Shown: piece by piece, positions 37,689 to 60,410 of the stretch
Numbering within the stretch: the stretch's first letter is position 1
Layout of the letters: each line of letters opens with the position of its first letter
Source of the DNA: Nocardioides sp. dk884
GTDB lineage: Bacteria; Actinomycetota; Actinomycetes; Propionibacteriales; Nocardioidaceae
DNA length: 64,000 nt
Assembly: GCF_009557055.1 (NCBI RefSeq)
Contig: NZ_CP045649.1
Location: 1,029,501-1,093,500 of the forward strand
Direction of reading: 5' to 3'
Position numbers and translations under genes: made by a program
Notes under the pieces: generated by a model
Database searches by the model: none
Told to the model about the DNA's origin: nothing
Seen by the model: the letters and a program-made list of their open reading frames with translations, nothing else

Positions 37689-37740
37689 GAGATCTGCTCC
37701 TGTCGTGGAACCTGGTGTGCAACGCTTGGTGCAAGATCGT

Positions 37741-37751: not shown

Positions 37752-37762
37752 AGGAGACAAAG

Positions 37763-44655: not shown

Positions 44656-45584
44656 CCTCGCAGCACCTCCTGCGGGCGGCGCCGGCCGGTGCCGCCGACC
44701 GGCTGCGGGCCCTGCTCCAGGGCACCGAGCTCGTGCACCTGCCGGGGGTGCACGACGCGGTCAGCGCGCGGCTCGCGAGCCGCAGCGGCGCCCGCGCCCT
44801 GCACCTCTCGGGCGCCGCGGTCTCCGCGGTGGAGCTGGGCCTGCCCGACATGGGCTTCGTGCACGGCACCGACATCGCCCGCCGGGCCGCCGTCGTGGCG
44901 GCCTCGGCGGACGGCGTCCCGGTGCTCGCCGACGCCGACACCGGCTACGGCAACGCCCTGCAGGCGCGGCACACCGCGATCGGCTACGCCGCCGCCGGGG
45001 TCGCCGGCCTGCACCTGGAGGACCAGGTCTCGCCCAAGCGCTGCGGCCACATGGCCGGCAAGGCGGTCGTCTCGCGCGCCGAGGCGGTGCAGAAGGTGCG
45101 CGCCACGATCGATGCCGGCACGTCCCTGGTCGTCGTGGCCCGCACCGACGCGCTGTCGGTCGAGGGCATCGACTCCGTGGTCGAGCGCTGCCTGGGGTTC
45201 GCCGACGCCGGCGCCGACGCGGTCTTCCCGGAGGGCGCCGGGCTCGCCGACCTGGAGCGGGTGCGCGCAGCCCTGGACGCCGCCGGCCACCGGGTGCCGA
45301 TGGTCTGGAACCGCTCCGAGGCCGCCGGCCCGGTCGAGTCCGGTCCGACCGCGGCACAGCTCGCCGAGGTCGGCGTCCGCGCCGTGATCCACCCGGTCTC
45401 CGCGCTGCTGGCCGCCGCCCGCGCGATGGAGCAGGTCTACGCAGCAATCGTCACGTCGGGCTCCGCGGCCGGCACCGAGCGCTGGGAGTGGCCCTCGCTC
45501 ACCGGGCTCGTGGGCCAGCCCGAGCTGCTCGACGAAGAGAAGCAGTACGCCGTCGCCGAGGCCTCCCCTCGGCGCACCTCGTGA
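44652..45584 (+). CDS. Isocitrate lyase/PEP mutase superfamily lyase
   Basis: This 310-residue TIM-barrel enzyme has ADADTGYGN at about 93-101 and the lyase signature SPKRCGH with K129, C131 and H133. The presence of KRCGH puts it with true C-C lyases such as 2-methylisocitrate lyase, oxaloacetate hydrolase or 2,3-dimethylmalate lyase rather than PEP mutase. A substituted malate would be cleaved to pyruvate or glyoxylate plus an acid. GTG 44652 overlaps the previous stop. With the MmgE/PrpD protein it could finish a route from a dialkylmaleate. Confidence 0.9.
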   Translation: MTSQHLLRAAPAGAADRLRALLQGTELVHLPGVHDAVSARLASRSGARALHLSGAAVSAVELGLPDMGFVHGTDIARRAAVVAASADGVPVLADADTGYGNALQARHTAIGYAAAGVAGLHLEDQVSPKRCGHMAGKAVVSRAEAVQKVRATIDAGTSLVVVARTDALSVEGIDSVVERCLGFADAGADAVFPEGAGLADLERVRAALDAAGHRVPMVWNRSEAAGPVESGPTAAQLAEVGVRAVIHPVSALLAAARAMEQVYAAIVTSGSAAGTERWEWPSLTGLVGQPELLDEEKQYAVAEASPRRTS

Positions 45585-45594
45585 AAGGGAAACG

Positions 45595-46827
45595 ATGACC
45601 ACCACCCCCGCCCCCCACCACAGCACCGTTCTCGTGGCCGGCGCCGGCGCGGTCGGCCTCACCGCCGCCCTGGTCGTCGCGCGTGCGGGCGTGCAGGTGA
45701 CAGTGCTCGAGGCCGGCGCGACGCTGTCCACGGAGTCGCGCGCCTCGACGTTCCACCCGCCGAGCCTGGAGATGCTCGACGACCTCGGCGTCCTCGAGCC
45801 GCTGATGGCCCGCGGCATCGTCTCCACCGGGTTCCAGTACCGCGACCGCCGCTCCGGCCCGATCGCCGACCTCGACCTCGGCGTGCTGGCCGACGACACC
45901 CGCTTCCCGTTCCGGGTGCAGTGCGAGCAGTCCAAGCTCACCCCGATCCTGCTCGAGGTGCTCGAGGGCCTCGACAACGTGACCGTCCACTTCGACCAGC
46001 GTGTGGTCAAGGCCGAGACCACCGCCGAGCTCGCGACCCTGACCACCGAGCGCGGCGACGTGTTCACCGCCGACTGGGTGCTCGGCGCCGACGGCTCGAA
46101 CTCCCAGGTGCGCCAGACGGCCGGGTTCACCTTCGAGGGGATGACCTACCCCGAGCGCTTCCTGGTCGCCTCGACCACCGAGGACCTCGACACGATCCTG
46201 CCGGGCATCTCCGCGGTCAACTACGTCTTCGACCCGACCGAGTGGCTGGTGCTGCTGCGCACCCCCGAGCACTGGCGGATCCTGTTCCCGACCGACCCGA
46301 GCACCCCCGACGAGGTCGAGATCGACGCGGCCCGCGTGCAGGAGCGCCTCGCCGGCGTCGCCGACCTCGGCCGCGACTGGGACGTCTTGCACACCACGCT
46401 CTACCGCGTGCACCAGCGGGTGGCCGACACCTTCCGCAAGGACCGGCTGATCCTGATGGGCGACGCCGCCCACATCAACAACCCGCTCGGCGGCATGGGC
46501 ATGAACAGCGGCGTCCACGACGCCATGCTCGAGGCCCTCGCGCTGATCGGCGTGCTCGACGGCTCGGCCTCCCTCGACGACCTCGACGAGGTCTGCGAGG
46601 CCCGCCGCCAGGTGGCGCTCTCCTACGTCAAGACCATCACCCACGACAACTGGGAGAAGCTGCGCCAGGACGACCCGGCGGCGCAGAAGGCCTACCACGA
46701 CGAGCTGCGCACGCTGGCCGCCGACAAGGAGAAGATGCGCAAGCACCTGCTCAACACCTCGATGATCAACTCGCTGCGCAGCGGCCAGGTCGTCGACATG
46801 GTCGGCGTGGGCGGTACGCAGGCGTGA
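45595..46827 (+). CDS. FAD-dependent monooxygenase (PHBH/PheA fold)
   Basis: This 410-residue flavoprotein has the three usual motifs: GAGAVG at 16-21 for the ADP part of FAD, GADGSNSQVR near 165 (the DG motif), and LMGDAAHINNPLGGMGMNSG near 290 (the GD motif). It would hydroxylate an aromatic or similar ring with NAD(P)H and O2. The C-terminus lacks the thioredoxin-like domain of phenol hydroxylases. AAAGGGAAACG precedes ATG 45595. A role on a pyrrole or other ring intermediate is suggested only by context. Confidence 0.92.
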   Translation: MTTTPAPHHSTVLVAGAGAVGLTAALVVARAGVQVTVLEAGATLSTESRASTFHPPSLEMLDDLGVLEPLMARGIVSTGFQYRDRRSGPIADLDLGVLADDTRFPFRVQCEQSKLTPILLEVLEGLDNVTVHFDQRVVKAETTAELATLTTERGDVFTADWVLGADGSNSQVRQTAGFTFEGMTYPERFLVASTTEDLDTILPGISAVNYVFDPTEWLVLLRTPEHWRILFPTDPSTPDEVEIDAARVQERLAGVADLGRDWDVLHTTLYRVHQRVADTFRKDRLILMGDAAHINNPLGGMGMNSGVHDAMLEALALIGVLDGSASLDDLDEVCEARRQVALSYVKTITHDNWEKLRQDDPAAQKAYHDELRTLAADKEKMRKHLLNTSMINSLRSGQVVDMVGVGGTQA

Positions 46828-48266
46828 GGATCGAACGCGAGAACCCGGCGCGCACCGACGAGGTCGTCGGCGCCGTCGAGTCCTCCGACGCCGCTGCGGT
46901 CGACGAGGTCGTCGCCCGCGCCCGCGCCGCCCAGGCGGAGTGGGTGACCGTGCCGGTGGACAAGCGCGCCGCGTTGCTGCGCGAGGCCGCGGCCCGGGTG
47001 CGTGCGCACCTGGAGGAGATCGCCACCCTCACCGCGCGCGAGACCGGCAAGGTGCTCGCCGACTCCCGCGGCGAGGCCGGCTTCGCCGCGACCGTGCTCG
47101 GCTTCTACGCCGACCGCGGCGAGGCGCTGCTGACCCCCGGCGGGTACGACGACGAGCGCGGCCGGATGAGCGTGCGGCACCGTCCGTACGGCGTGGTCGC
47201 CGCGGTCACCCCGTGGAACGCGCCGCTGATCCTCACCACGCTCAAGCTCGCGCCGGCGCTGGTGAGCGGCAACGCGGTGGTCGTCAAGCCCTCGCCGTTC
47301 GCGCCGTTCGGCATCGGCCGGCTGCTCGAGCTCGTCGGCCAGGACCTGCCCGCGGGCCTGGTCCAGGTCGTGCACGGGGGAGCGGAGACCGCCAGCGCGC
47401 TGGTCTCCCACCCGGGCGTCGACCGGGTCGCGTTCACCGGCGGCGAGACGGCCGGCCGGGCGATCGCCTCGCTGGCCGGGCGGGCGCTCACCCCCAGCGT
47501 GCTCGAGCTGGGCGGCAACGACCCGGCGCTGATCCTCGACGACGCCGCGCTCGACGACGCCGCGCTGGACCGGCTGGTCATGGCGGCCTTCGCCACCAGC
47601 GGCCAGGTCTGCATGGCGATCAAGCGCCTCTACGTCCACCGCAGCCGCCTCGAGGAGGTCGTCTCCGGACTGGAGTCCGCGGCCGCGCGGGTGCTGCGCA
47701 CCGGCGACCCGCTCCACGACGGGGTCAGCATGGGCCCGGTGGTCAGCGGCCCCTCGGCGGCGCGGGTGTCCGGCCTGGTCGAGCAGGCCCGCGCCGCGGG
47801 CGCCGACGTGCGCGAGCTCGGCACCGTCGACCCGGCGAGCGACCTCGCGCGCGGCTACTTCGTGCGCCCGACGCTGGTGCTGGGCGCCGAGGACTCCGCA
47901 CCGATCGTGGCCGAGGAGCAGTTCGGTCCCACCCTGCCGGTGCTGGCCTTCGACGACGTCGACGAGGCGGTGGCCCGCGCCAACGCCGGCGACCTGGGCC
48001 TGGGCGGCTCGGTGTGGTCGGCCGACGAGGACCGCGCGTTCGCCGTGGCGGCGCGCCTCGACGCGGGCTTCGCCTTCGTCAACACCCACAACCGCACCGG
48101 CATGGCGCTGCACGCGCCGTTCGGCGGGGTGAAGCGCTCCGGCTGGGGCCGGGAGTACGGCGACGACGGCCTGTGGGAGTACGTCCAGCCCTGCGTGGTG
48201 CACGCGCCGGCGGCGTTCCGTGCCGGGGGAGCAGGGCTGGCCGCGAACGCCTACCCCGGGTCTTGA
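46824..48266 (+). CDS. Aldehyde dehydrogenase (2)
   Basis: This 480-residue enzyme has VTPWNAPL (N132), VVVKPSPF (K155), VLELGGNDP (E228) and SGQVCMA (C263), the full set of an active aldehyde dehydrogenase. It is homologous to the enzyme at 43153 but clearly distinct. Two semialdehydes may arise in the pathway. GTG 46824 overlaps the previous stop. It ends the operon that began at 40440, 85 bases before the RCCR-like gene. Confidence 0.92.
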   Translation: MRIERENPARTDEVVGAVESSDAAAVDEVVARARAAQAEWVTVPVDKRAALLREAAARVRAHLEEIATLTARETGKVLADSRGEAGFAATVLGFYADRGEALLTPGGYDDERGRMSVRHRPYGVVAAVTPWNAPLILTTLKLAPALVSGNAVVVKPSPFAPFGIGRLLELVGQDLPAGLVQVVHGGAETASALVSHPGVDRVAFTGGETAGRAIASLAGRALTPSVLELGGNDPALILDDAALDDAALDRLVMAAFATSGQVCMAIKRLYVHRSRLEEVVSGLESAAARVLRTGDPLHDGVSMGPVVSGPSAARVSGLVEQARAAGADVRELGTVDPASDLARGYFVRPTLVLGAEDSAPIVAEEQFGPTLPVLAFDDVDEAVARANAGDLGLGGSVWSADEDRAFAVAARLDAGFAFVNTHNRTGMALHAPFGGVKRSGWGREYGDDGLWEYVQPCVVHAPAAFRAGGAGLAANAYPGS

Positions 48267-48301: not shown

Positions 48302-48312
48302 ATATAATATAT
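48302..48312. promoter_or_regulatory. Candidate GntR operator at the RCCR/Rieske operon
   Basis: ATATAATATAT is a perfect 5-1-5 inverted repeat in the 85-base gap before 48352. It contains TATAAT, a consensus -10 box, so promoter and operator may coincide here. Confidence 0.55.
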
Positions 48313-48351
48313 AGTTCAGGCATCACCGCCCGAGATCCCCGAAGGACACCC

Positions 48352-49167
48352 ATGAGCCAGAACCTCAAGTACGTCCAGGACTTCCTGGACGACGCCCCGG
48401 TCACTGACGTCTCCGCGATCTTCGCGGAGTGGACCGACATCATCGAGGGACTCAAGACCAAGGCGATGGCGCACTTCGATCTGGTGCGCGACCCCTCCAC
48501 CGAGGAGCTCGAGGCGTTCTCCTCCGATGTCGAGGGCGGCCCCTCGGGCAGCGTCCGCGGCTACACCGGCCCCGACGTGGACTGGATGATCCACTCGCAC
48601 ATGCAGAACAAGGGCCTGGGCTTCGTCAACGTCCACCTGACCATCTGGCTCGGCCCGCACATCGACGTGCCGCACTTCGGCATGGCGCTCGGTGCGTTCC
48701 CGCAGGCCTGGATGTTCCTGGACTCGGTGCCGCGCAAGGTGATCTCGACCGACGCCGACTACTTCCGCAAGTACTACGAGCCCTTCAACCAGGAGTGGCT
48801 GACGCTGCACAAGGAGACCCCGGGCCTCGAGGAGTTCGTCTCCCGCGACGCGTTCGTGCGTGCGACGTACTCGCCGACGGCGTGGTCGTTCATGGCGCCG
48901 GGCTCGCAGGAGATCTTCGACCTGGCCCGCAAGACCGCCAACGCCCACATGGACCGCTGGCTGCAGTGGGTCGACGAGGCCATCGCGGTGCCGGTCGAGA
49001 AGCGCGCCGAGCTGGCCGCCAACGACCTGGCGACGCGGCGCAACATCGCCGAGCTGGACCCGGCCAACGTGGTCGCGGTCCGCTACTTCGGCGAGGAGCG
49101 CACCGCTCAGCTGGTCCGCGCCCTGTGGGGCGGCGACCGGGCCCTGCCCCGCCCGCTCGAGGCCTGA
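48352..49167 (+). CDS. Red chlorophyll catabolite reductase-like protein (1)
   Basis: This 271-residue protein was compared from memory with plant RCCR (Arabidopsis ACD2). Shared features are a DADYFRKYY segment at 134-142 (plant NPDYLKEYY), DAFVRATYSPTA at 166-177 (plant FVRSAFSPTA) and a C-terminal helix with FGEERTAQLV (plant FGEEVSSRVV). A PHIDVPHFG strand at 102-110 fits the bilin-reductase fold. Plant RCCR reduces red chlorophyll catabolite with ferredoxin. This protein should bind an open-chain tetrapyrrole or similar, though reductase activity is not proven. It leads an operon and is preceded by GAAGGACACC. A second, more distant relative is encoded at 51449. Confidence 0.7.
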   Translation: MSQNLKYVQDFLDDAPVTDVSAIFAEWTDIIEGLKTKAMAHFDLVRDPSTEELEAFSSDVEGGPSGSVRGYTGPDVDWMIHSHMQNKGLGFVNVHLTIWLGPHIDVPHFGMALGAFPQAWMFLDSVPRKVISTDADYFRKYYEPFNQEWLTLHKETPGLEEFVSRDAFVRATYSPTAWSFMAPGSQEIFDLARKTANAHMDRWLQWVDEAIAVPVEKRAELAANDLATRRNIAELDPANVVAVRYFGEERTAQLVRALWGGDRALPRPLEA

Positions 49168-49177
49168 CGACGACGCG

Positions 49178-50176
49178 ATGAGCTCTCCTGTCCTGGTCCG
49201 GGCGGTCCGCGAGGCGGTGCGCGTCCCCGGCGCGCCCGCCCCGTACGACACCGCCCACGTGACCATCCGGCACCCGGCCCGGCCGGCGTCGACGGAGGTC
49301 GAGCGGATGAGCGGCATGCTCCCCGCCGACGCCTCCGGCGCGCCGTACCCCGTGGTCGTCGTGGTGCCGGGCGTGAACGTCTCCTCCGAGGGCTACCGCT
49401 GGCTGGCGGTCGCCCTGGTCGAGGCGGGCTACGTGTGCGTCACCTACGACTGGGTGGGGGAGCTGTTCGCGGGCCAGAACGGACTCACTCCCGGGGTCGA
49501 CCTGACCGCGGTCGGGCCCGACACCTACGGCACCAAGCCGACCACGCCCGCGCTGGCCGCGGTGCTGGACAGGCTCGCCGAGCTGAACCGGGTCGAGGGA
49601 GTGCTCGGCGGGCTGCTCGACCTGGGCCGCGTCGCGCTGTTCGGCCACTCCGCCGGCGGCACCGTCGCGCTGCAGTCGGCGAGCCCGGGGTGGTTCCCCG
49701 GCGTACGCGCGGTCATCACCTACGCCTCGCACACGATGGCCTCCCAGCAGCTCGGCCACCCGGCCGGCACGCTGCTGACCGCGCCGGTCGCCGTACCCGT
49801 CCTGCTGGTCGGCGGCAGCGCCGACGGCGTGGTCGCGGCGAGCGCGGTGCGCTACGGGGAGGAGGCCGGCGCTCCCGGCCACGACCCGCTCGAGCGCACC
49901 TGGCGCGAGGCGCTGCCGGGCGCGGCCGAGGCGTGGCTCGCGGTGCTCTCCGGCGCCGGGCACATGCTGCCGGCCACTCCCGCGGACCCGTCCTCGGCGC
50001 GCGGGTTCCTCGAGGAGCCCCTCGACGCCGACCAGGACGAGCTGCGCGAGGTGTTCGCGCGGCTGCTCACCGACTTCCTCGACGCGAAGCTCTGCGACGA
50101 CCCGGCCGCCACGGCCACCCTGCAACACCACCTGGACCAGCCCAACCCCGTCTTCGCCGATCTTCGGCGACGCTAG
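49178..50176 (+). CDS. Serine alpha/beta-hydrolase, chlorophyllase/dienelactone hydrolase-like
   Basis: This 332-residue hydrolase has the strand VVVVVPGVNVSSEGYRWLAVALVEAGYV (about 56-83) and a nucleophile elbow LFGHSAGGTVAL, then VLLVGGSADGVV with a likely Asp and GAGHMLPA with the catalytic His. The PG-N loop and GHSxGG elbow are as in the chlorophyllase and PET-hydrolase-like groups, but dienelactone hydrolases are also close. In this operon a dephytylating or ester-cleaving role is attractive. No signal peptide is present, so it is cytoplasmic. ATG 49178 follows the RCCR-like stop by 10 bases. Confidence 0.75.
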   Translation: MSSPVLVRAVREAVRVPGAPAPYDTAHVTIRHPARPASTEVERMSGMLPADASGAPYPVVVVVPGVNVSSEGYRWLAVALVEAGYVCVTYDWVGELFAGQNGLTPGVDLTAVGPDTYGTKPTTPALAAVLDRLAELNRVEGVLGGLLDLGRVALFGHSAGGTVALQSASPGWFPGVRAVITYASHTMASQQLGHPAGTLLTAPVAVPVLLVGGSADGVVAASAVRYGEEAGAPGHDPLERTWREALPGAAEAWLAVLSGAGHMLPATPADPSSARGFLEEPLDADQDELREVFARLLTDFLDAKLCDDPAATATLQHHLDQPNPVFADLRRR

Positions 50177-50186
50177 GAGGATCACG

Positions 50187-51452
50187 ATGTTCAAGAACTT
50201 CTGGTACGCCGTCGAATTCGCCACCGACGTTGTCCCCGGCAAGCCCAAGAGGGTCAAGGTGCTGGGTCAGCAGCTGGTCCTCTACCGCAAGAACAGCGAC
50301 AACTCCGTCGTCGCGATGTCGGACCTGTGCGTGCACCGCGGTGCCGCGCTCTCCGACGGTGAGGTCAAGGGCGACTGCATCACCTGCCCGTACCACGGCT
50401 GGGAGTACAACCCCGCCGGTGAGGTCACCAAGATCCCCGCGCACCCCGACAAGGGCATCCCGCGCAAGGCCCGCATCGACTCCTACCCCGTGCAGGAGAA
50501 GTACATGATGGTGTGGGTCTACATGGGCGACCTGCCCGAGGAGGACCGCCCGCCGATCCCGGACTGGTCCGCGGTCGACGACACCGACACCTACGCCGCC
50601 GTCACCGGCAGCTTCTTGTGGAAGTCCAACTACGAGCGCATCCTCGAGAACGGCGTCGACGTCGCGCACACGCCGTTCGTGCACGGCGGCGTCTTCGGCA
50701 ACCCCGAGAAGCCCGAGGTCCCCGAGTTCGAGATCGAGGAGGGCCCCTGGCACTGCAAGGTGTCGGTGAAGCTCAACCCGCCGAAGTCGAAGGGCCTGTG
50801 GGGCATCATCAACCCCAACAAGCAGGACCTGGCGAACCGCCCGCAGGTGCCGGTCTCCACCACCTGGTGGCTGCCGAACATGATCCTGCTCGAGGTCGAC
50901 ACCCCGATGGGTGCGATGAAGATCTTCGACGTCAACATCCCGATCGACGAAGAGACCACGCTGGTCAAGTTCATCGCCCTGCGCACCTTCTTCAAGGGCA
51001 AGTGGGCCGACCGCGACGCCAAGCGCCGCGTGTTCAAGGTGCTCTACGAGGACCAGGCCATCGTCGACGCCGTGCGTCCCGAGCTGCTCCCGTTCGACCT
51101 CTCCGATGAGCTGCACGTCAAGAGCGACTACAACGCGGTGCTCTACCGCCGTCGTCGCCAGCAGCTCATCGACATGGGCTGGTCGGTCGAGGGCAACACG
51201 ATCGTCGGCGAGGGCCCGGCCCGCGTCGAGGCCCGCGTGATCCCCTCCCCGATCCGCAAGGAGGTGCCGGAGCTCGCCAGCGCGTGGAACTTCAAGGAGG
51301 TCCGCAGCCGCGAGATCAAGGCCGGCATCCAGGAGAAGGAGGCGGCCGCCAAGGACGTCGCTGCCGCCCGCAAGACCAAGGCCGCCACCAACGGCGCGGC
51401 CGCGAAGACCGCCACTGTGAACCCCACCAACAACGAGGACGTCAAGGCATGA
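50187..51452 (+). CDS. Rieske non-haem iron oxygenase, PAO-like
   Basis: This 421-residue oxygenase has a Rieske centre C48-x-H50 and C67-x2-H70 (CVHRGAALS, CPYHGWEY) and a mononuclear iron site N155-x2-D158-x2-H161-x4-H166 (ENGVDVAHTPFVH), the arrangement of pheophorbide a oxygenase and ketosteroid hydroxylase type enzymes. It would open or oxidise a ring using an outside reductase, which is not encoded nearby. From about 375 onward the tail is Lys/Ala-rich (EKEAAAKDVAAARKTKAA) and lacks the C-terminal membrane helix of plant PAO. AGGAGG precedes ATG 50187. It lies between two RCCR-like genes. Confidence 0.9.
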   Translation: MFKNFWYAVEFATDVVPGKPKRVKVLGQQLVLYRKNSDNSVVAMSDLCVHRGAALSDGEVKGDCITCPYHGWEYNPAGEVTKIPAHPDKGIPRKARIDSYPVQEKYMMVWVYMGDLPEEDRPPIPDWSAVDDTDTYAAVTGSFLWKSNYERILENGVDVAHTPFVHGGVFGNPEKPEVPEFEIEEGPWHCKVSVKLNPPKSKGLWGIINPNKQDLANRPQVPVSTTWWLPNMILLEVDTPMGAMKIFDVNIPIDEETTLVKFIALRTFFKGKWADRDAKRRVFKVLYEDQAIVDAVRPELLPFDLSDELHVKSDYNAVLYRRRRQQLIDMGWSVEGNTIVGEGPARVEARVIPSPIRKEVPELASAWNFKEVRSREIKAGIQEKEAAAKDVAAARKTKAATNGAAAKTATVNPTNNEDVKA

Positions 51453-52189
51453 GCCTGCCCGAGGAACTCTGCATCGGCACGCTGAACGAGATCGTCAAGC
51501 GTGGCAACCTGACCGAGATCACCGGGGCCGACGGCGGCCCCTTCCAGGTGCTCGGCTCCGTGATGGGCCCCGACCCGGTCGGCTCGGTCCGGATCTTCTC
51601 CGGCGAGAAGATCGCCAAGGTCGTCTACGTCGGCATCGTGGTCCCGCAGATCCAGATGGACAGCCACATGGTGTTCGCGTTCATGCCCGACGGCTCCCCG
51701 GTGCCGCACTACACCCTGGACTCGGTCCACGCCGGTGGGCACTACGCCTTCCACATCGACCTGATCCAGCGCGCCGACGCCGGCACCCACATGGTCTACA
51801 ACGACTGGGCGCACACCCCGCTCACCGAGGCCTACGAGCAGGTCAACGCGATGGAGGGGCTCTCCAAGGCCGCTCTCGAGCCGCGCCAGCTCACCGTGAT
51901 GTCGTCGTGGATGCTGGCCAGCCGTGCCAGCGAGGAGGCCTTCGGCAACCTCCACGCCCCGGTCAACGCCTACCTCGACCACTGGTTCTCCCTCGTCGAG
52001 GGCGGCGTGCCGACCGAGGTCACCGCCGACCTGGCCGACACCGACCTGGCGGCTCGCGACGCGAAGAACCGCGCGCTGCTCTTCAGCCCCGAGGTCGACA
52101 AGGTGTGGGCGCAGATCTCGCGCCTGCTCACCGAGCCGGTCGCGGAGAGCATCCGCCTGCAGCTGGTCGACAACGAGCTCCCTGCATGA
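51449..52189 (+). CDS. RCCR-like / bilin-reductase-fold protein (2)
   Basis: This 246-residue protein has the same general layout as the RCCR-like protein at 48352: a beta core (VPHYTLDSVHAGGHYAFHI, 85-103), an acidic-aromatic stretch MVYNDWAHTPLTEAYEQ, and a C-terminal helix pair with YLDHWFSLVEGG and DLAARDAKNRALLFSPEVDKVW. It lacks the SPTA block of the first protein. It overlaps the Rieske stop by ATGA. It may form a complex with it or act on another intermediate. The family call is by pattern, weaker than for the first. Confidence 0.55.
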   Translation: MSLPEELCIGTLNEIVKRGNLTEITGADGGPFQVLGSVMGPDPVGSVRIFSGEKIAKVVYVGIVVPQIQMDSHMVFAFMPDGSPVPHYTLDSVHAGGHYAFHIDLIQRADAGTHMVYNDWAHTPLTEAYEQVNAMEGLSKAALEPRQLTVMSSWMLASRASEEAFGNLHAPVNAYLDHWFSLVEGGVPTEVTADLADTDLAARDAKNRALLFSPEVDKVWAQISRLLTEPVAESIRLQLVDNELPA

Positions 52190-53139
52190 GCGAGGCCCAG
52201 GCCAGCGAGTGGCAGAAGCGCATCGCGGGGGAGTGGCACGGTCGTCCGTCGCTCTTCGACGCCGAGGGCAACCACGTCGGCTTCGAGCGGATCGCTCGCG
52301 CCAGCGTGGTCGAGAACGGTGAGACCAGCTATTGGATGAAGAGCCAGCTCGAGGGCACGGGGCCGTTGCGCAACCGCCTCGAGGTCGGCGCGACGTTCAA
52401 CTTCGGCATCGTCGACTCCGACGAGAACCGGGTCTACGTCGGGCCGGACTTCTTCGGCACCGGTCAGCCCTACGGCACCCTCGTCGACGCGAACTACTAC
52501 TCGCCGGCCTGGCAGGCCGACATGCACACCTGGAACCAGGTGCTGCCTGACGGCGACACGCAGGTCTACTCCTCGATCCTCTACGACGGCTGGTCGGTGG
52601 TGGCGCTGTTCAACGGCGTCTACAAGCGGACCTTCGACCACGAGACCAACCCCGAGACGCAGGCCTACGTCGAGGACTGGATCGCCGCCGAGACCCGGCG
52701 CGGTCCGGTCCCGCAGGTGCTGCCGACCAAGGAGGCCGGGACCTACTCCGGCGTCCTGGCGGTGGTGGGGGAGGACCAGAAGCCGGTCGGTGAGGTCGCG
52801 GTCCGCATCGAGCACGAGCCCGTCGGGCTGCGCTCGGTGCGGCACAGCGTGACCTGGACCGGCGCGCTGGAGCGCTCCTACACCTATGAGCGTCAGCGTG
52901 ACGGGGCCCGGGTGCTCTACGAGGGCCCCGAGGTCTACGGCAACGCCATGACCTTCGGCCGCGCGGTCTTCACCAACCAGCACCTGGTCGGCCCGGACCT
53001 GAAGGGCGTGGAGAAGATCCGCGGTCGGGAGTACGTCTTGGATCCCGAGACCCGCGACCTCGCGGTGGTGTGGCGGCTGTTCCACGGCGACCGCACCACC
53101 CACTTCGTGCACGGCCTGCTGACCTGGGAGGCCCGATGA
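52186..53139 (+). CDS. Beta-rich protein, possibly lipocalin-like, family unknown
   Basis: This 317-residue protein is mainly beta strands in two similar halves. The first starts IAGEWHGRPSLFDAEGNHV (9-27), the second after about 180. Trp and Tyr are frequent (YYSPAWQADMHTWNQ, YDGWSVVALFNGVYKRTF). The opening resembles that of the small protein at 22205 (MGEWEGEYVHLDPEG). Calycin-fold proteins often bind bilins, and bilin lyases of the CpcS/T type share this fold, so a carrier or isomerase role is possible. It overlaps both neighbours and is in the middle of the tetrapyrrole-like operon. Confidence 0.5.
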   Translation: MSEAQASEWQKRIAGEWHGRPSLFDAEGNHVGFERIARASVVENGETSYWMKSQLEGTGPLRNRLEVGATFNFGIVDSDENRVYVGPDFFGTGQPYGTLVDANYYSPAWQADMHTWNQVLPDGDTQVYSSILYDGWSVVALFNGVYKRTFDHETNPETQAYVEDWIAAETRRGPVPQVLPTKEAGTYSGVLAVVGEDQKPVGEVAVRIEHEPVGLRSVRHSVTWTGALERSYTYERQRDGARVLYEGPEVYGNAMTFGRAVFTNQHLVGPDLKGVEKIRGREYVLDPETRDLAVVWRLFHGDRTTHFVHGLLTWEAR

Positions 53140-53942
53140 GCGGCACCGACGGCCGCGTCGTCGTCGTCACCGGCGGCACCCGCGGCATCGGCCTGGGCCT
53201 GGCGCGTGAGTTCCTGGCCCGCGGGTGCCGGGTGGTGATCTGCGGTCGCAGCGACGCCGCGGTCGCCCACGCCCTCGGCGAGCTCGGTGCCGGTGAACGC
53301 GCGACCGGCCTGGCCACGGACGTGACCGACCGGGCGGCCGTCCAGGCGCTGTGGGAGCACGCCGTGGCGGCGTACGGCCGCGTCGACGTGTGGATCAACA
53401 ACGCCGGCATCTCCGCGCCGCACAGCACGATCGTGGCCGCCGACCCCAAGACCGTCTCCGATGTCTTCGCCGTCAACGTCTCCGGGGCCCACAACGGCTG
53501 CGCGGTGGCGGGCGCCGGGATGGCCACCCAGCCCGGCGGCGGCTGGGTGTGGAACATGGAGGGCTTCGGCTCCGACGGGCGCATCCAGGCCGGCATCGGC
53601 ATCTACGGCGCCTCCAAGCGCGCGGTCCGCTACCTGACCGAGGCGCTGGTCAAGGAGCACAAGGAGAGCCCGGTCAAGATCGGCTTCCTCTCCCCGGGGA
53701 TCGTCGTGACCGACCTGCTGGTCGGCGACTACGACGGCAAGCCCGAGGCGTTCGCGAAGGCCAAGAAGGTCTTCAACATCCTCGGCGACAAGGTCGAGAC
53801 GGTCACGCCGTACCTCGCCGAGAAGGTGCTCGCCGCGCAGAAGAACGGCGCGCGGGTCGAGTGGCTGACCAACGCCAAGGCGGCGCGGCGGTTCATGGGC
53901 GCCGGCTTCCGCAAGCGCGACCTGTTCGCCGAGGCGGGCTGA
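53136..53942 (+). CDS. Short-chain dehydrogenase, NYC1/NOL (chlorophyll b reductase)-like
   Basis: This 268-residue SDR has TGGTRGIG at 12-19, DVWINNAG at 84-91, and active-site Y157/K161 (YGASK). Two features, compared from memory, are as in plant NYC1/NOL: the WINNAG variant and the WNMEGFGSDG block (plant FNMDGAGSGG) in place of the common ISS motif, plus a SPGIVVTDLL stretch (plant SPGMVLTELL). NYC1/NOL reduce the C7-formyl of chlorophyll b. A carbonyl reduction on a tetrapyrrole is the best guess, but other SDR roles remain possible. It overlaps the next gene. Confidence 0.7.
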   Translation: MSGTDGRVVVVTGGTRGIGLGLAREFLARGCRVVICGRSDAAVAHALGELGAGERATGLATDVTDRAAVQALWEHAVAAYGRVDVWINNAGISAPHSTIVAADPKTVSDVFAVNVSGAHNGCAVAGAGMATQPGGGWVWNMEGFGSDGRIQAGIGIYGASKRAVRYLTEALVKEHKESPVKIGFLSPGIVVTDLLVGDYDGKPEAFAKAKKVFNILGDKVETVTPYLAEKVLAAQKNGARVEWLTNAKAARRFMGAGFRKRDLFAEAG

Positions 53943-54652
53943 TGGACGCCGCGCGCGGGGTCGACGTCTGCACCGAGTACGGCGTGGCCCTGGCCGTGGA
54001 GGACTTCGTCCCCTGCGTGCTGGCCCTCGCCGCGCTGGTGATCCTCGCCCAGGCGGTACGCCGGCGGGTGCCGGCCGCCTACCCGGTCGCCCTGATCGGC
54101 GGCCTGGTGGTCTCGGCGGGCGGCTTCGGCAAGGCCACCTGGAAGCTCCTGGTGGCCACCGGCTGCTGGGAGTACCCGTGGCTGGAGTCGCTGCTGTTCC
54201 CCTGCCTGGCCTTCGGGTTCTCCGCCGTCGCCTGGGCAGTGCTCAGCGCGATCAAGGGACGCGAGGTCGCGCCGCTGGGGTTCGTGCTCTTCCCGCTCGC
54301 GGCCGGCGTCGGCGCGGCCTGGATGAGCATCTCGGCCGGTGAGTACACCAACTGGCCGCTGCTGATCGCGGCCGCCGTGGGCGCCACGTTCCTCGGGGTC
54401 ACGCTGGCCGCCACCGCCTTCCGGGCGGGCAAGGCGTCGGTCGGCGTCCTGTTCGTGATCTACACCCTCGGCACCAACATCCTGCCGCCGCTGGCGGCGC
54501 AGCCCGAGCAGTCCGCGGAGCTGCAGTGGGCCGAGCAGCTGACCAACTCCGCGGTCCAGCTGTGCTTCCTGCTCGGGGCTCTCTGGCTGCGCGAACACAT
54601 GACGAGCAAGGCGGCCGGCGAGGCCGCCGAGAAGACAGGAGTGCCCGCGTGA
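53942..54652 (+). CDS. Membrane protein of unknown function
   Basis: This 236-residue protein has about seven hydrophobic segments (VPCVLALAALVILA, ALIGGLVVSAGGFGKATWKLL, LLFPCLAFGFSAVAW and later ones) and short loops. A Cys occurs in TGCWEYPW and another in LLFPCLAF. No family was recognised. The start overlaps the SDR stop (TGATG), and its stop overlaps the next GTG, so it is firmly in the operon. It may carry a pathway intermediate, anchor the soluble enzymes or take part in electron delivery. Confidence 0.7.
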   Translation: MDAARGVDVCTEYGVALAVEDFVPCVLALAALVILAQAVRRRVPAAYPVALIGGLVVSAGGFGKATWKLLVATGCWEYPWLESLLFPCLAFGFSAVAWAVLSAIKGREVAPLGFVLFPLAAGVGAAWMSISAGEYTNWPLLIAAAVGATFLGVTLAATAFRAGKASVGVLFVIYTLGTNILPPLAAQPEQSAELQWAEQLTNSAVQLCFLLGALWLREHMTSKAAGEAAEKTGVPA

Positions 54653-55398
54653 GCGTGGACCGTCTCGGCTGGCGCCGGAAGTTCGGCGTCATCGCCCCCA
54701 GCACCAACACCATCGTCCAGCCCGAGTTCGACATGATGCGGGTGCCCGGCGTGACCTCGCACTACGGGCGGATCTTCATCCCCGACGGCCGCATCGCGAC
54801 CGATGAGGGGATGGAGAACCTGCTGGTGCAGATCCGCGCCAACATGGACGCCTGCGTCGAGAGCCTGATGACGATGCAGCCCGACTACATGGTCATGGGC
54901 ATGAGCGCGGAGACGTTCTGGGACGGCGTCGAGGGCAACCGCGCCTTCGTCAAGCAGATCCAGGCGCTCACCGGCGGCCTGGGCGTGGCGACCGGCGCCG
55001 AGGGCTGCGAGCGCGCGCTGCACCTGTTCGGTGCCAAGAAGATCGCCGTGCTCACGCCGTACACGCCGATCGGCGATGCCAACGTGCGCAAGTTCTTCAC
55101 CGAGCTCGGCTTCGAGGTCGGCCAGATCAAGGGGCTGTGCGTGAACAGCGCGGTCGAGATCGCCCAGGTCAGCGAGAAGACGCTGCGCGAGTCGCTGGTC
55201 GAGATCAACGACTCCGACGTCGACGCGATCGTGCAGTGCGGCACCAACCTGTGCATGACCGAGCTCGCCGACGAGGCGGAGCGCTGGCTGGACAAGCCGG
55301 TGATCGCGATCAACGCCGCCACCTGGTGGATGGCGCTGCGCGACAACGGCATCGAGGACAAGCTGCACGGCTACGGCACGCTGCTGCGCGAGCACTGA
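54649..55398 (+). CDS. Maleate isomerase/arylmalonate decarboxylase family protein
   Basis: This 249-residue Asp/Glu-racemase-fold protein has APSTNTIVQPEF near 16-27, LTPYTPIGDANV and IVQCGTNLCMT. Maleate isomerases need two Cys. Here the second is kept (C197, QCGTNL), but the first position reads MGMSAETF, with Ser86. The one-Cys pattern is like arylmalonate decarboxylase. It may isomerise, racemise or decarboxylate a substituted maleate or malonate. GTG 54649 follows AGGAG. It ends the operon at a very strong terminator. Confidence 0.85.
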   Translation: MSVDRLGWRRKFGVIAPSTNTIVQPEFDMMRVPGVTSHYGRIFIPDGRIATDEGMENLLVQIRANMDACVESLMTMQPDYMVMGMSAETFWDGVEGNRAFVKQIQALTGGLGVATGAEGCERALHLFGAKKIAVLTPYTPIGDANVRKFFTELGFEVGQIKGLCVNSAVEIAQVSEKTLRESLVEINDSDVDAIVQCGTNLCMTELADEAERWLDKPVIAINAATWWMALRDNGIEDKLHGYGTLLREH

Positions 55399-55854: not shown

Positions 55855-56520
55855 TCAGGCGAGGTCCGGCGGCGGGCCGGCCTCGGCGGCGTACCGCTCC
55901 ACGAGCTCGGCGCCGAGGACGAGCCGCTCGCTGGAGCCCCAGCGCGGGTGGCAGGTCACCAACGTCATGGTGCGCGCCGTGGGCTTGGCGCCCGGGAAGC
56001 CGGCGACCGGCTCGACGACCTCGACGGCGCTGGGGCTGACGATGCGGCTCCAGGTGACCTCATAGACCAGCCACTTGCCGACGGTCTCGACGATGATGCG
56101 GTCGCCCTCGCCGACCTGGTCGAGGTTCGCGAAGGGCTCCCCGTGGGTGGCGCGGTGCCCGGCGATGGCGAAGTTGCCGACCTGTCCGGGCAGCGCGGTG
56201 CCGGGGAAGTGGCCCGGGCCGCGGGCGAGGTCGGAGTCGCCGACGCCCTCGACGACCACCCACTCCCAGTCATCGCCCAGGGCGGGGATGTGGAGGACGC
56301 CGAAGCCCTCACCGGCCCGCGGGGTGCTCGCCTCGGCGGACTTCTGGGCGCCGTCCGAGGTGAGCTCGCGGAAGTCGTCCATCAGGCCGCGCTGCGCGGC
56401 CTGGGTCTGCTGGTTGGTCCAGACCAGCAGATAGAAGGCGAAGGCCAGCAGCACCAGTCCCGCGGTGATCGCGACCTCGGCGACGGCGCGGATTCCGGTG
56501 GAGATCACGGTTCGTAACAT
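55855..56520 (-). CDS. Class E sortase
   Basis: This 221-residue sortase has one N-terminal membrane helix (VAITAGLVLLAFAFYLLVW), catalytic H122 (AIAGHRATHG), C190 (LVTCHP) and R199 (SSERLV). It should join surface proteins to the cell wall or pili, and class E enzymes prefer LAxTG-like signals. No such signal is seen in this window, including in the exported protein at 56600. ATG 56520 is chosen so that the membrane helix is near the N-terminus. It is divergent from the exported protein, with an ATAT-type site between them. Confidence 0.92.
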   Translation of the reverse strand: MLRTVISTGIRAVAEVAITAGLVLLAFAFYLLVWTNQQTQAAQRGLMDDFRELTSDGAQKSAEASTPRAGEGFGVLHIPALGDDWEWVVVEGVGDSDLARGPGHFPGTALPGQVGNFAIAGHRATHGEPFANLDQVGEGDRIIVETVGKWLVYEVTWSRIVSPSAVEVVEPVAGFPGAKPTARTMTLVTCHPRWGSSERLVLGAELVERYAAEAGPPPDLA

Positions 56521-56532
56521 CGCTGACACCCT

Positions 56533-56543
56533 AAATAATATAT
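56533..56543. promoter_or_regulatory. Candidate GntR operator between sortase and exported protein
   Basis: AAATAATATAT is an imperfect match to the 5-1-5 motif. It lies 13 bases from the sortase start and 57 from the exported-protein start, so it might control both. Confidence 0.45.
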
Positions 56544-56599
56544 CATCGCCAAATCGGAGATCCGATGCAGGGACCGGCAGCCGAGGAGACGCTACGGCA

Positions 56600-58990
56600 A
56601 TGAGGACGCGCGCACGAGCACTTGGGGCCGCCCTGGCCTCCGGCCTGGTCGCATCGATGACACTCATCGGTGCGGGCAGCTCGGGAGCCCTCGGCGCGGG
56701 CATCGCGCCCACCGACGGGCTCGACCCCCTCGTCCTTGCCGGCGGGTGCTGGACCTATACGCCTGACCCGCTGACCGACCCTGCGCAGCCCGCCGGGCCC
56801 GCCGTCGACGGCGAGCCCCTCGACCTGACCGACGAGCCTCTGTTCGACATCTCCACCGCGTTGGAACCGTGGTCCTCCCTGCCGCCCGACCCTGCGGCGC
56901 CCCCGGTCGCCCCGCTGCTCACGACCGCCGGCGACACCGCCGTCGGCGGCACTCGCACCTTCGCCCTCGACCTGGCCGGCGGCCCTGCGCTCGGCGAGGT
57001 GCCGACGGTCGTCCGGGCGGTCTTCCACTTCTCTGTCGACGGCCAGGATATCGCGCCCGTCGAGGTCTCCTTCGGTCCTGGCGAGGAGCTCGAGGAGCTC
57101 CCCCCGGTCGAGGGCAGCTTCGTGATCGAGGAGCCCGGCGCCCACCAGATCGCGCTGCGCGGCGTCTTCTTCGACATGCCGCTGCTGGCCCGCCGGGTCG
57201 CCTGCAACGCGCAGACCGAGGGGATTCCCGGCGGCGCCAACCCCGCCACGGCCCCGCTCGACACCAACCTGGCCTCCGACTTCGCCGCCGTCGCCGAGCC
57301 CGCGGCGATCATCGCCGGCATCGAGGGTCAGCGGGGGCTGGGTGCGGCCCGCGCCGGCGACACCGTCCGGGTCGCGGTGATCGGACTGGCCTCCAGCACC
57401 GAGGCGCAGGTCGCCCTCTGTGACGCCGCCGCGCTCTGCCTCCCGCCGGCCACCTTCCTCACCGAGCCGGACGGCTCCGGCCTGGGCGAGATCCGGGTGC
57501 CGAGCGAGGTGGAGGCGGGGGAGTGGACGCTGCGCGTCTCCGACGCCGCGCGCTGGCTCGACCTCCCGCTCACCCTGCTCGGCACCCCGGCGCTCACCCT
57601 GACCGAGGAGGCCGCCGAGGACGAGGTCGAGATCATCGTCGAGGGCGTCGGGTGGAACCCCGGAGTCCCGGTCGAGGTGCGCGGCTACCGCGGCCCGCGG
57701 TTGGTCGCCGGCAACGCCACCTCCGATCGCCGGGCCCGGGTGCGCCCCGATGCCACCGGCGCGTTCAGCGCGACCTTCACCGCGACCGACCGCAGCACGA
57801 AGCGGGTCGGGGCCGTGCAGGCGCGGGCCGACCGCGCGCCGCTGCGTGCCGCTGCGGTGTTCGGGGGTTTCGCGGCCGTACCGCCGCCGCCCGGCCCCCC
57901 GCAGAACGATCCTCCGCAGAACGACCCGCCGGCGAGCCCTCCCGCGACCACGCCGTCCGTCGTCACCCCGGCGCCGCCGGCTTCCATCGCGGCGCCGCCG
58001 GCCGAGCCGCCGCTCAGCATCCCGCCGCCCAGCGGCAAGGGCGTCAAGAAGTTCGACCCGCCGGCGGAGCCCGACCCGGAGCCCGTCGAGACGACCCTGG
58101 CCATCGGCCAGGTCACGCTGGAGGGGAGCGCGAGCTTCGGCGAGCTCTTCGGCGCCGCCCCCGAGCGCACCTTGTCCTTCACGGTGCAGAATCTCGGCGA
58201 GGTCGCCGTGGAGGACCCCGAGGTGCGTCTCGTGGTCAGCAAGACCGACGACGTCGAGCCCGCGCCGGTCAAGGCCGGGATCGGCACCCTCGAGCCCGGC
58301 GACACGGCGCGCGTCGAGATCCCGATCGCGCTGCCGACCGCGGCCTTCGGCACCTACCACGTGCGCGGCGGCGTCGGTGACGCCGAGCTGACCGCGTTCG
58401 ACCTGGAGTGGAGCAGCTACCCGTGGGGGCTGTTCGTGCTCAATGCCCTCGGTCTGGTCCTGCTCGGCTGGGGTCTGCGCCGCCGCCTCGCGGCCCGCGG
58501 CATCGCACTGTCCGCCCTGCTGCCCCTCGCCGCCCTGTCGCTGCCGGTCGGCGCACGCCGTACGCCGCCCGCCGACGGCCCGCTGGGCGACGCGGTCGTC
58601 GACCTGGTGGCCCTGGAGAAGTGGTGGGACCTGCGCGACGGCGGCCAGCGCCCGCCGGCCCCGCGCCCGCGCCTCCTCGGGGGTACGCCGACGCCGCTGA
58701 TGGCCACCGTCCCTGCGGCGGCGCCGCGTGCGGATGCCGTCGAGCTCAACGACTCGGTGGTCGACCTGGCGGCCGCCGCCGCGTGGTGGGAGCACCGCAG
58801 CAATGGCGAGCCGCAGCCGCGCCGGCGCCTGCTCGCGGTGGCCGGCGAGCCCGCGCCGCGTGCGGTCGGGTCGGTCGCGGTCCTCGACCCCGAGGCTGAG
58901 GCCGCCGACGCCGCGATCGTCGACCTCGCCGCCGCCGACGCGTGGTGGTCCAGGCAGGAACAGCGCCGGAAGGGTTACGGGCGTGGTTAA
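56600..58990 (+). CDS. Large exported, membrane-anchored protein with three C-terminal repeats
   Basis: This 796-residue protein has a signal peptide (about 1-35), a long extracellular part with few Cys and several beta domains, and a Pro-rich linker at about 430-490. A further beta domain (about 490-600) ends at a membrane helix near 610-630 (LFVLNALGLVLLGWGLRRRL). The cytoplasmic tail holds three repeats with VVDLVALEKWW, VVDLAAAAAWW and IVDLAAADAWW at 666, 720 and 773, about 54 residues apart. No family was recognised. It could collect substrate or organise a complex. ATG 56600 gives a proper signal peptide. The next gene starts only 50 bases later. Confidence 0.75.
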   Translation: MRTRARALGAALASGLVASMTLIGAGSSGALGAGIAPTDGLDPLVLAGGCWTYTPDPLTDPAQPAGPAVDGEPLDLTDEPLFDISTALEPWSSLPPDPAAPPVAPLLTTAGDTAVGGTRTFALDLAGGPALGEVPTVVRAVFHFSVDGQDIAPVEVSFGPGEELEELPPVEGSFVIEEPGAHQIALRGVFFDMPLLARRVACNAQTEGIPGGANPATAPLDTNLASDFAAVAEPAAIIAGIEGQRGLGAARAGDTVRVAVIGLASSTEAQVALCDAAALCLPPATFLTEPDGSGLGEIRVPSEVEAGEWTLRVSDAARWLDLPLTLLGTPALTLTEEAAEDEVEIIVEGVGWNPGVPVEVRGYRGPRLVAGNATSDRRARVRPDATGAFSATFTATDRSTKRVGAVQARADRAPLRAAAVFGGFAAVPPPPGPPQNDPPQNDPPASPPATTPSVVTPAPPASIAAPPAEPPLSIPPPSGKGVKKFDPPAEPDPEPVETTLAIGQVTLEGSASFGELFGAAPERTLSFTVQNLGEVAVEDPEVRLVVSKTDDVEPAPVKAGIGTLEPGDTARVEIPIALPTAAFGTYHVRGGVGDAELTAFDLEWSSYPWGLFVLNALGLVLLGWGLRRRLAARGIALSALLPLAALSLPVGARRTPPADGPLGDAVVDLVALEKWWDLRDGGQRPPAPRPRLLGGTPTPLMATVPAAAPRADAVELNDSVVDLAAAAAWWEHRSNGEPQPRRRLLAVAGEPAPRAVGSVAVLDPEAEAADAAIVDLAAADAWWSRQEQRRKGYGRG

Positions 58991-59000: not shown

Positions 59001-59039
59001 TCTTCCGTTATGACCCGCCTCACGGATGGAGGAGCCCGC

Positions 59040-60410
59040 GTGACGAGCTCGAGGACCAAGAACCGTTGGTGGCGCGACCGGTCGGCGGTGATCCGCACGA
59101 CTGCCGTCGCGGCCTCCGCGTGCCTCGCGCTCGTGGGCTGCGGCGCGCTCATGCCCGGCGGCAACACGGGAGGTGGCGGCCTCGCAGTGGCCGCCGGACC
59201 CGGCCCCGGCGTCAGCGACGACTCGGTCAAGGTGGTCTTCGTGGCCGTCGACCTCGACGCGATCCAGAAGCTGACCGGCTTCGTCACCGCCCCGGTGGGT
59301 GACCAGGAGGCGCAGATCCAGGCCCTCGAGGACTGGGTCAACGACAACGGCGGCCTCGGCGGCAAGAAGCTCGACGCGGTCTTCCGCCTCTACGACGGAC
59401 AGAACGACTCGCCGGCGACCGAGGAGCAGCTCTGCAACCAGGTCACCCAGGACGACAAGGCGTTTGCCGTCGTGCTGACCGGCCAGTTCCAGTCCAACGC
59501 CCGCCCCTGCTACGCCCAGCGCGAGACGCTGATGCTCGACGCGACGCTCTACGCCAGCGACACGGCGTACTACGAGGAGCTGGCGCCGTACCTCTGGTCG
59601 CCGAGCTTCCCCGAGTACGACTCCTTCATCCGCGCCTACGTCGCGGCCACGGAGAAGCAGGGCTTCTTCGAGGGCCAGAAGTCCGTCGGCGTGGTCGCGG
59701 CGGACTCCCCGGTCAACCGCCGCGCGGTGGAGGAGGTCGGGGTGCCCCTGCTGAAGGAGGCCGGCCTCGACGTGCAGGTCGGCTGGGTCGACCCCACCGA
59801 CATGGGCACCCTCTACGCCGGCCAGGAGCAGGCGGCCGACACGTTCCGCAGCAAGGGCGTCCAGCGGGTCATGTTCTTCGGCGGCTCGCGCCTGGCCTCG
59901 ATCTTCGCCAGCATCGCGGCCGGTCGCCAGTTCACGCCGAGGTACTCGATCTCGAGCTTCGACAACCCCTCGTTCTTCATCAACAACCCCGACCTGATCC
60001 CCGACGGCACGATGGACGGGATGATCGGCATCGGGTTCCACCCGCCGCAGGACGTCTCTGATGAGCTGGTGCCGTTCCCGGACCCCGACAACGCCGCCGA
60101 GGTGGAGTGCTTCGAGGTCTACAAGGACGCCGGCATCACCTTCGAGTCGCGCGAGAGCGCCCGCGTGGCGCTGCCGTACTGCGACGCCGCGCGCATGCTC
60201 AAGATCGGCGCCGACAACGCCAGCGGTGACCTCAACGCCCAGACCTGGTCCGATGCGATGGAGGCGAACGGCGAAGGCGTCGAGACCGCAGCCGGCTTCG
60301 GCGGTGCGCTCGACCGCGGCCGCGCGGGCGCCGGCGGCTACCGGGCCATGCGCTTCGACGATGAGTGCCAGTGCTTCGTCTACGACGGCGACGTGGAGCT
60401 CTTCGAATGA
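59040..60410 (+). CDS. Liv-type ABC substrate-binding lipoprotein
   Basis: This 456-residue protein has a lipoprotein signal ending LVGC with Cys34, then the type I periplasmic binding fold: VKVVFVAVDLDAIQKL, LEDWVNDNGGLGGKKL, FAVVLTGQFQSNARPC and VMFFGGSRLASIFAS. GTG 59040 follows GGAGGAG. An in-frame ATG at 59010 is possible. Several Cys in the mature part (QLCNQV, RPCYAQ, ECFEVY, LPYCDA, ECQCF) are unusual for the family. Ligands of such proteins include amino acids, amides, aromatic acids and others. It is the first gene of an operon with ATPase and permease genes. Confidence 0.88.
   Translation: MTSSRTKNRWWRDRSAVIRTTAVAASACLALVGCGALMPGGNTGGGGLAVAAGPGPGVSDDSVKVVFVAVDLDAIQKLTGFVTAPVGDQEAQIQALEDWVNDNGGLGGKKLDAVFRLYDGQNDSPATEEQLCNQVTQDDKAFAVVLTGQFQSNARPCYAQRETLMLDATLYASDTAYYEELAPYLWSPSFPEYDSFIRAYVAATEKQGFFEGQKSVGVVAADSPVNRRAVEEVGVPLLKEAGLDVQVGWVDPTDMGTLYAGQEQAADTFRSKGVQRVMFFGGSRLASIFASIAAGRQFTPRYSISSFDNPSFFINNPDLIPDGTMDGMIGIGFHPPQDVSDELVPFPDPDNAAEVECFEVYKDAGITFESRESARVALPYCDAARMLKIGADNASGDLNAQTWSDAMEANGEGVETAAGFGGALDRGRAGAGGYRAMRFDDECQCFVYDGDVELFE

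Follow-up and report, generated by a model that had tools for sequence, protein, structure and literature searches.

Plants end the breakdown of chlorophyll at phyllobilins, via a pathway (the PAO/phyllobilin pathway) that includes NYC1/NOL, PAO and RCCR. Enzymes of known function that have the RCCR fold (RCCR itself, bilin reductases and coproporphyrinogen oxidase) act on tetrapyrroles. Here we describe a gene cluster of Nocardioides sp. dk884, located in and just beyond a window of 64,000 nucleotides (positions 1029501-1093500 of a single-contig 4.28 Mb genome that is 99.98% complete). Its central operon (48352-55398 of the window) encodes RCCR-superfamily proteins along with a Rieske oxygenase. 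The cluster likely enables Nocardioides and related actinobacteria to live on pigments of the chlorophyll or haem type. Should the substrate prove to be of this kind, PAO/RCCR-like tetrapyrrole breakdown would gain a further variant.

Like the plant pathway, the cluster combines RCCR-superfamily reductases with a Rieske oxygenase, here encoded side by side, and its short-chain dehydrogenase (SDR) resembles a NOL sequence, not drawn from a database, over most of its length. Unlike in plants, the Rieske protein is of the VanA type and lacks the PaO domain, there are three RCCR-type proteins rather than one, and the amidases, CoA-transferases and lyases of the cluster suggest complete degradation. 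A second point of comparison is the degradation of nicotinate and cyclic imides, which uses maleamate amidohydrolase and maleate isomerase. Shared with it are a cyclic amidohydrolase, a maleate-isomerase relative (amd) and an isochorismatase-fold amidase close to 3ot4/3uao (E 7e-35), structures of the maleamate amidohydrolase NicF. However, amd lacks one catalytic Cys, and 2,5-dihydroxypyridine dioxygenase was not recognised here.

Ferredoxin-dependent bilin reductases, including those of pre-PcyA clusters, have the same fold, and the profile of one cluster protein, RCCR-A, matches GtPEBB (E 2e-9). According to PMC10151467, pre-PcyA clusters typically occur with genes for haem oxygenase, Fe-S proteins, V4R proteins and globins, none of which was recognised here. 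From the same genus comes the 25-gene operon for catabolism of the N-heterocyclic pigments lumichrome and riboflavin in Nocardioides simplex, which likewise combines Rieske and amidase genes; as outlined in PMC12746152, it also includes a P450, a thiamine pyrophosphate (TPP) decarboxylase, xanthine oxidase, a two-subunit Rieske enzyme and a catechol dioxygenase, and none of these was recognised in our cluster.

Among the matches listed from the open-access literature, no RCCR-containing catabolic cluster was described in bacteria, nor were bacterial genes that complete the breakdown of chlorophyll or haem. Both pigments turn over on a vast scale, and the cluster would help to explain the fate of that carbon and nitrogen. 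If our interpretation is correct, the pairing of an RCCR-type reductase with a Rieske oxygenase exists outside plants, and the bacterial RCCR-like sequences, which PMC10151467 includes in its outgroup, gain a likely role. Given a conserved cluster with three RCCR-fold proteins, its predicted operator and a defined set of markers, the question can be tested directly in cultivable Nocardioides.

RCCR-superfamily proteins

The operon consists of eight genes (Table 1), all on the plus strand and at the positions given in the initial annotation. From the Rieske gene to amd each start overlaps the preceding stop (51449, 52186, 53136, about 53939 and 54649), and the first two intergenic gaps, upstream of the Rieske gene, are about 10 bp each. 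The operon as first proposed is real.

The same annotation had claimed two RCCR-like proteins, and both stand. RCCR-A passes the Pfam RCC_reductase model (cut-off 24.9 bits), and its profile aligns with Arabidopsis RCCR over about 230 residues (E 7e-16); it falls below the cut-off of the ferredoxin-dependent bilin reductase model (Fe_bilin_red, PF05996; 21.9 bits vs 31). For RCCR-B and the calycin protein encoded next to it, the Pfam scan returned nothing at E up to 1. Sequence comparison identifies RCCR-B as a distant homologue of RCCR-A, and the best Protein Data Bank (PDB) match of its AlphaFold model is Arabidopsis RCCR. Judged from this predicted structure, RCCR-B is a member of the RCCR superfamily. 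A third gene, RCCR-C, is located at about 1096.8 kb of the genome, ~3 kb past the window end, adjoining an NAD-epimerase-like gene (PF06405, 46.6 bits vs 24.9). The cluster RCCR proteins have the RCCR/bilin-reductase fold, and chains of RCCR, bilin reductase and coproporphyrinogen oxidase make up most of the high-Z rows in the structure comparison.

The catalytic pair of plant RCCR (Arabidopsis) is Glu154 and Asp291. An invariant Asp236 of RCCR-A aligns with Asp291, and an invariant Asp91 of RCCR-B stands at the position of Glu154 (plant numbering inferred from chain length in both cases).

Conservation across genomes

RCCR-B was detected in 23 of 294 genomes of the family, and the calycin gene in the same 23. 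These genomes are also the ones with PF06405, each with exactly two matches, both ≤24 kb from RCCR-B. A scan of genome contigs recovered four Nocardioides loci, each with a collinear stretch that starts at the acyl-CoA-dehydrogenase-like gene and runs to amd; one locus lacks the ICL-like and FAD monooxygenase genes.

We fetched about 18-20 kb on either side in the 22 other family genomes. Twenty genes are present in 22/22, from the MFS transporter and carbon-nitrogen (CN) hydrolase genes and the operon through to those for the sortase, the surface protein and the ABC transporter, and the ICL-like and FAD monooxygenase genes are present in 19/22. The operon arrangement is not due to chance, because it is collinear in these 22 genomes while the RCCR proteins diverge down to about 55% identity. 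In this genome the collinear core, from the MFS gene to RCCR-C, spans about 32 kb, and the cluster with both of its extension modules about 53 kb.

The extensions were followed for a further 20 kb in 12 of the 22 genomes, on one side in four and on both in eight. A downstream module occurs in 6 of 11 genomes with downstream sequence; it encodes an MmgE/PrpD protein, RidA-like repeats, two MaoC/FAS1-dehydratase-type proteins, a thiolase, a ChsH2-like OB protein, an acyl-CoA dehydrogenase and an HpcH/HpaI-type lyase. The module at 27324-32348 was found in 6 of the 12 extended genomes; in one it lies upstream, as here, and in the other five it adjoins the opposite cluster end. It probably belongs to the same pathway, because it switches ends yet stays with the cluster. 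In the remaining extended genomes it may be elsewhere or absent.

Beyond the family, RCCR-A was matched in 15 of 394 genomes of the class, and the core is partly recognisable in three further families, where each of the two amidases is present in 6/7 of the genomes examined. Two of these families retain much of the block, along with CoA-transferase and HMGL-like genes: genome G622 has nearly the whole block, the isochorismatase-like gene is missing from G516 and the genes for the calycin and flavin reductase from G346, and in G532, where the locus starts at a contig end, the first genes are missing from the fetched sequence. In the third family the genomes are small (1.0-1.7 Mb), several of them are incomplete, and the gene set is split over contigs. 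Enlarged sets of RCCR-fold genes were observed in small actinobacterial genomes (G324, L142-L145; G297, L146; G372, L139-L141). G324 (1.7 Mb) has seven RCCR-fold genes along with two Rieske and two calycin genes, which is remarkable for so small a genome, and in its locus L142 an MFS gene lies beside RCCR genes.

Other proteins of the operon

The initial annotation likened the operon to the plant pathway as a whole. This holds for RCCR and probably for the NOL-like SDR, and fails for PAO and chlorophyllase. The Rieske protein has both its domains above cut-off (Table 1), with CxH..CxxH and D-x2-H-x4-H motifs; among solved structures it is closest to SxtDIOX/SxtT and NdmA. The PaO domain (presumably PF08417) is absent from its five Pfam matches with E up to 1. 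PAO has a C-terminal CxxC and a membrane anchor; by eye, the C-terminus of the cluster protein is an Ala/Lys/Thr-rich tail with neither a Cys pair nor a hydrophobic helix. We thus reject the PAO identity. The hydrolase does have the GHSAGG motif and passes the DLH model. It scores 10.5 bits with the Chlorophyllase model (PF07224, cut-off 26), and we regard it as a generic alpha/beta hydrolase rather than a chlorophyllase; a further hydrolase, encoded beside RCCR-C, reaches only 17.7 bits. Because the Rieske protein is not of the PAO type and the hydrolase is not a chlorophyllase, the plant order of steps (NYC1/NOL, PPH or chlorophyllase, PAO, RCCR) is not demonstrated. Staygreen gave no match, in a search whose control was silent too.

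The NMEGFGSDG block reported for the SDR is present, and the corresponding NMxGxGS pattern was read in 27/27 cluster loci and in 0/21 of the other SDR loci of this genome in which the region was readable (30 of 60 domain matches were fetched). By this sequence feature the cluster SDR is a distinct subtype. It is probably NOL-like: with a plant NOL sequence not drawn from a database, a lead rather than a test, it is the closest of 31 SDR loci in the genome (37% over 257 aa, 132 bits; next locus 81 bits). The calycin fold, initially given as possible, is present as the two-domain form of DUF3598/BFA1. The nearest PDB entries to amd are maleate isomerases, which have two catalytic Cys; amd retains the second and has Met at the position of the first, and was therefore not accepted as a two-Cys maleate isomerase.

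Table 1. Genes, modules and predicted operators of the cluster, in window coordinates (near and far: more and less closely related cluster genomes)
Feature	Position	Strand	Evidence or remark
Movable module: cyclic amidohydrolase (27324), MmgE/PrpD (28787), PF04199 cyclase (30274), family III CoA-transferase (31152)	27324..32348	-	
HMG-CoA-lyase-like lyase	32482..33441	-	NF004283 264 bits, cut-off 246
Predicted operator upstream of CoA-transferase gene	33482..33493	+	
Family III CoA-transferase	33505..34719	+	PF02515
Isochorismatase-fold amidohydrolase	34724..35386	+	21/22 near, 6/7 far genomes
MFS transporter	36228..37934	-	
Predicted operator upstream of CN hydrolase gene	37739..37750	+	
CN hydrolase (amidase)	37763..39433	+	PF00795 143 bits; 22/22 near, 6/7 far genomes
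GntR/FCD regulator, divergent from 40440	39565..40263	-	22/22 near genomes
Flavin reductase (HsaB/HpaC-like) with HMGL-like C-terminal part	40440..41819	+	
Acyl-CoA-dehydrogenase fold, likely flavin monooxygenase (nitrososynthase/DszC relatives)	41816..43156	+	
Aldehyde dehydrogenase 1	43153..44655	+	
ICL/PEP-mutase lyase (methylisocitrate/dimethylmalate lyase relatives)	44652..45584	+	
FAD monooxygenase	45595..46827	+	nearest PDB PnpA, HspB
Aldehyde dehydrogenase 2	46824..48266	+	succinic-semialdehyde-dehydrogenase-like, below that model's cut-off
Predicted RCCR-A operator, about 40 bp upstream of the gene	48302..48313	+	outside motif-derivation set
RCCR-A, RCCR/bilin-reductase superfamily	48352..49167	+	PF06405 43 bits, cut-off 24.9
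Alpha/beta hydrolase, GHSAGG nucleophile elbow	49178..50176	+	passes Hydrolase_4 and DLH models, not Chlorophyllase
Rieske non-haem iron oxygenase, VanA_C type	50187..51452	+	Rieske 87.7, VanA_C 81.6 bits
RCCR-B, second RCCR-superfamily protein	51449..52189	+	AlphaFold model; distant homology to RCCR-A
Two-domain calycin, DUF3598/BFA1-like fold	52186..53139 (start about 52183-52186)	+	
SDR, NMEGFGSDG block, NOL-like	53136..53942	+	adh_short 134 bits
Predicted membrane protein (by eye)	53939..54652	+	conserved in 22/22; Pfam scan gave nothing above cut-off, no confident family
amd, Asp/Glu racemase superfamily (Amdase/maleate isomerase-like)	54649..55398	+	PF17645 61.6 bits
Sortase	55855..56712	-	PF04203
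LIV-type ABC transporter: lipoprotein that likely binds the substrate (to 60410); LivF-type ATPase (60407-61144)	59010..61144	+	lipoprotein without Pfam match

Predicted pathway and alternatives

Building on the observed gene content, RCCR fold, conservation and co-occurrence across genomes, we propose with moderate confidence that the cluster takes up tetrapyrroles, predicted to be ring-opened chlorophyll- or haem-type pigments, and degrades them to central metabolites. A tetrapyrrole substrate is favoured because the known enzymes of the RCCR fold act on tetrapyrroles. The dismantling of a pyrrole chain fits because the scanned cluster genes include several C-N hydrolases and no catechol or other aromatic ring-cleaving dioxygenase was recognised among them; they also encode two aldehyde dehydrogenases, two flavin monooxygenase systems, CoA-transferases, hydratases and lyases. 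Tetrapyrrole catabolism, the wider idea of the initial annotation, is therefore the best reading, strengthened by the remaining cluster genes that it did not include.

The substrate, the order of steps and every activity are predictions. The surface proteins and LIV-type ABC transporter would import the pigment, which the calycin may hold, and oxidation at a bridge or pyrrole position would fall to the Rieske oxygenase. In the manner of RCCR and bilin reductases, RCCR-A, RCCR-B and RCCR-C would act on the opened chain by reducing its double bonds, and formyl groups from cleavage would be left to the NOL-like SDR and both aldehyde dehydrogenases. The FAD and two-component flavin monooxygenases may split the chain into single oxidised pyrroles (alkyl-maleimides), whose ring opening to alkyl-maleamates and alkyl-maleates would be the task of the cyclic amidohydrolase together with amidases of the isochorismatase and nitrilase types. 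CoA-transferases, PrpD/MaoC hydratases and lyases of the ICL, HMGL and CitE types could convert these to pyruvate and acyl-CoAs. As a presumed one-carbon homologue of 2-methyl-aconitate, the maleate derived from haematinic acid could plausibly be handled by PrpD and an ICL-type lyase. Mono- and dipyrrolic chlorophyll products are described from leaves in PMC7318184. In its fullest form, the scheme would amount to complete mineralisation of chlorophyll-type tetrapyrroles in Nocardioides and small-genome actinobacteria, in which a Rieske enzyme and three RCCR-fold reductases are followed by flavin monooxygenases that yield alkyl-maleimides, an imidase and amidases that free the nitrogen, and a methylcitrate-like endgame in which PrpD and an ICL-type lyase give pyruvate and acyl-CoAs; this we offer only tentatively.

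Several observations weigh against a tetrapyrrole substrate. RCCR-A has an invariant Ala112 where Arabidopsis has Glu154, i.e., the Glu of plant RCCR is absent, and the RCCR fold is also present in a chain of the chloroplast motor complex. The Rieske protein is of the VanA type, the FAD monooxygenase is near pyridine and nitrophenol enzymes, and amd lacks one Cys of the maleate isomerases. A ferredoxin gene was not recognised among the scanned cluster genes.

Some of these observations would suit the degradation of another N-heterocycle or polycyclic compound (an alkaloid, a hydroxypyridine or a steroid-like molecule), with RCCR-fold proteins recruited for a new reduction. We consider this somewhat unlikely, yet it is the most serious of the alternatives. 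Besides the Rieske type, the motor-complex chain and the HspB/PnpA affinity of the FAD monooxygenase, it draws on the closeness of the isochorismatase-fold amidase to N-carbamoylsarcosine amidase (E 4e-38) as well as to 3ot4/3uao, on the HsaB-like reductase, on the ChsH2-like OB protein and thiolase of the downstream module, and on the LIV-type transporter. Yet each of the 23 family genomes that has any RCCR-superfamily protein has three, of a fold whose known enzymes are tetrapyrrole-acting, and one small genome has seven; nor was a pyridine-ring or catechol dioxygenase recognised among the scanned genes.

Alternatively, the substrate could be haem, the cell's own or scavenged, with a haem oxygenase encoded elsewhere making biliverdin for the cluster and chlorophyll uninvolved. 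Haem oxygenase (PF01126) is encoded far from the cluster in 26 of 30 cluster genomes, this one included (only cluster genomes were counted), and the C-terminal domain of the calycin resembles haem nitrobindin. However, no haem oxygenase match was found in G268 or in any of three small-genome relatives that were searched, one of which is 70% complete, and conservation of the predicted uptake system suggests a substrate from outside the cell. We regard this alternative as improbable. Least probable is a pathway for making or tailoring a pigment, e.g., bilin synthesis, as in the heterotroph pre-PcyA clusters that are described in PMC10151467 as making bilins beside bilin-binding globins, since globin, V4R and phytochrome genes were not recognised among the scanned cluster genes and the CoA-transferases, lyases, acyl-CoA dehydrogenase, amidases and import-type transporter argue for degradation.

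Predicted regulon

A Gibbs sampler applied to the promoters of four cluster operons in up to 23 genomes (84 sequences) returned a common AT-rich element with 20.8 bits per sequence, compared to about 8 for composition shuffles, a figure inflated by the relatedness of the sequences. The derived pattern, RTANNNNATATA, has eight matches in this genome vs two for the reversed control, and four of the eight are inside the cluster. Across the 23 cluster genomes there are 168 matches vs 64 for the control, and in seven genomes of the same genus without the cluster 2 vs 5. In the 20 fully listed genomes, 72 of 144 matches are ≤22 kb from RCCR-B, where 1.5 would be expected; this count includes some derivation promoters and two self-overlapping pairs counted twice. 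The RCCR-A promoter was outside the derivation set, and a site at that promoter distance is present in 15 of the 20.

A distant match at 2.025 Mb (G000 2025490, L184) is directly upstream of a second Amdase-family gene. Orthologues of this amd paralogue (at least 80% identity) occur in 14 genomes, 11 of them fully listed, and the motif is ≤150 bp away in 9 of the 11, the exceptions being G054 and G195. From these promoter patterns, one regulon is predicted to link the cluster sub-operons and the distant Amdase paralogue.

Two other matches were observed. One (G000 582075, L182) is upstream of a gene for 2-oxoacid:ferredoxin oxidoreductase, which could supply ferredoxin electrons; the 12-mer there is also present in three close relatives (motif match only). 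The other (G000 1286320) is just upstream of an MFS transporter gene (L183:3110-4786).

Surface proteins and flanking regions

The sortase and two anchored surface proteins are present in 20-22 of the 22 relatives and possibly serve in pigment capture at the cell surface. The anchored proteins are encoded just past the window (L004:10551-12553), with LPKTG/LPQTG anchors, and one belongs to the neocarzinostatin family. Also just past the window, a single 970-aa open reading frame (ORF; L004:7642-10554) fuses LIV-type permease parts with a LivG-type ATPase. Positions 9204-25522 of the window form a separate region with, by eye, two oligopeptide-type ABC transporters and IclR-type regulators, whose conservation alongside the RCCR cluster is not consistent. 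Closely similar DUF222 ORFs (PF02720) flank the supercluster, at 4744-6018 of the window and at L079:13723-15003.

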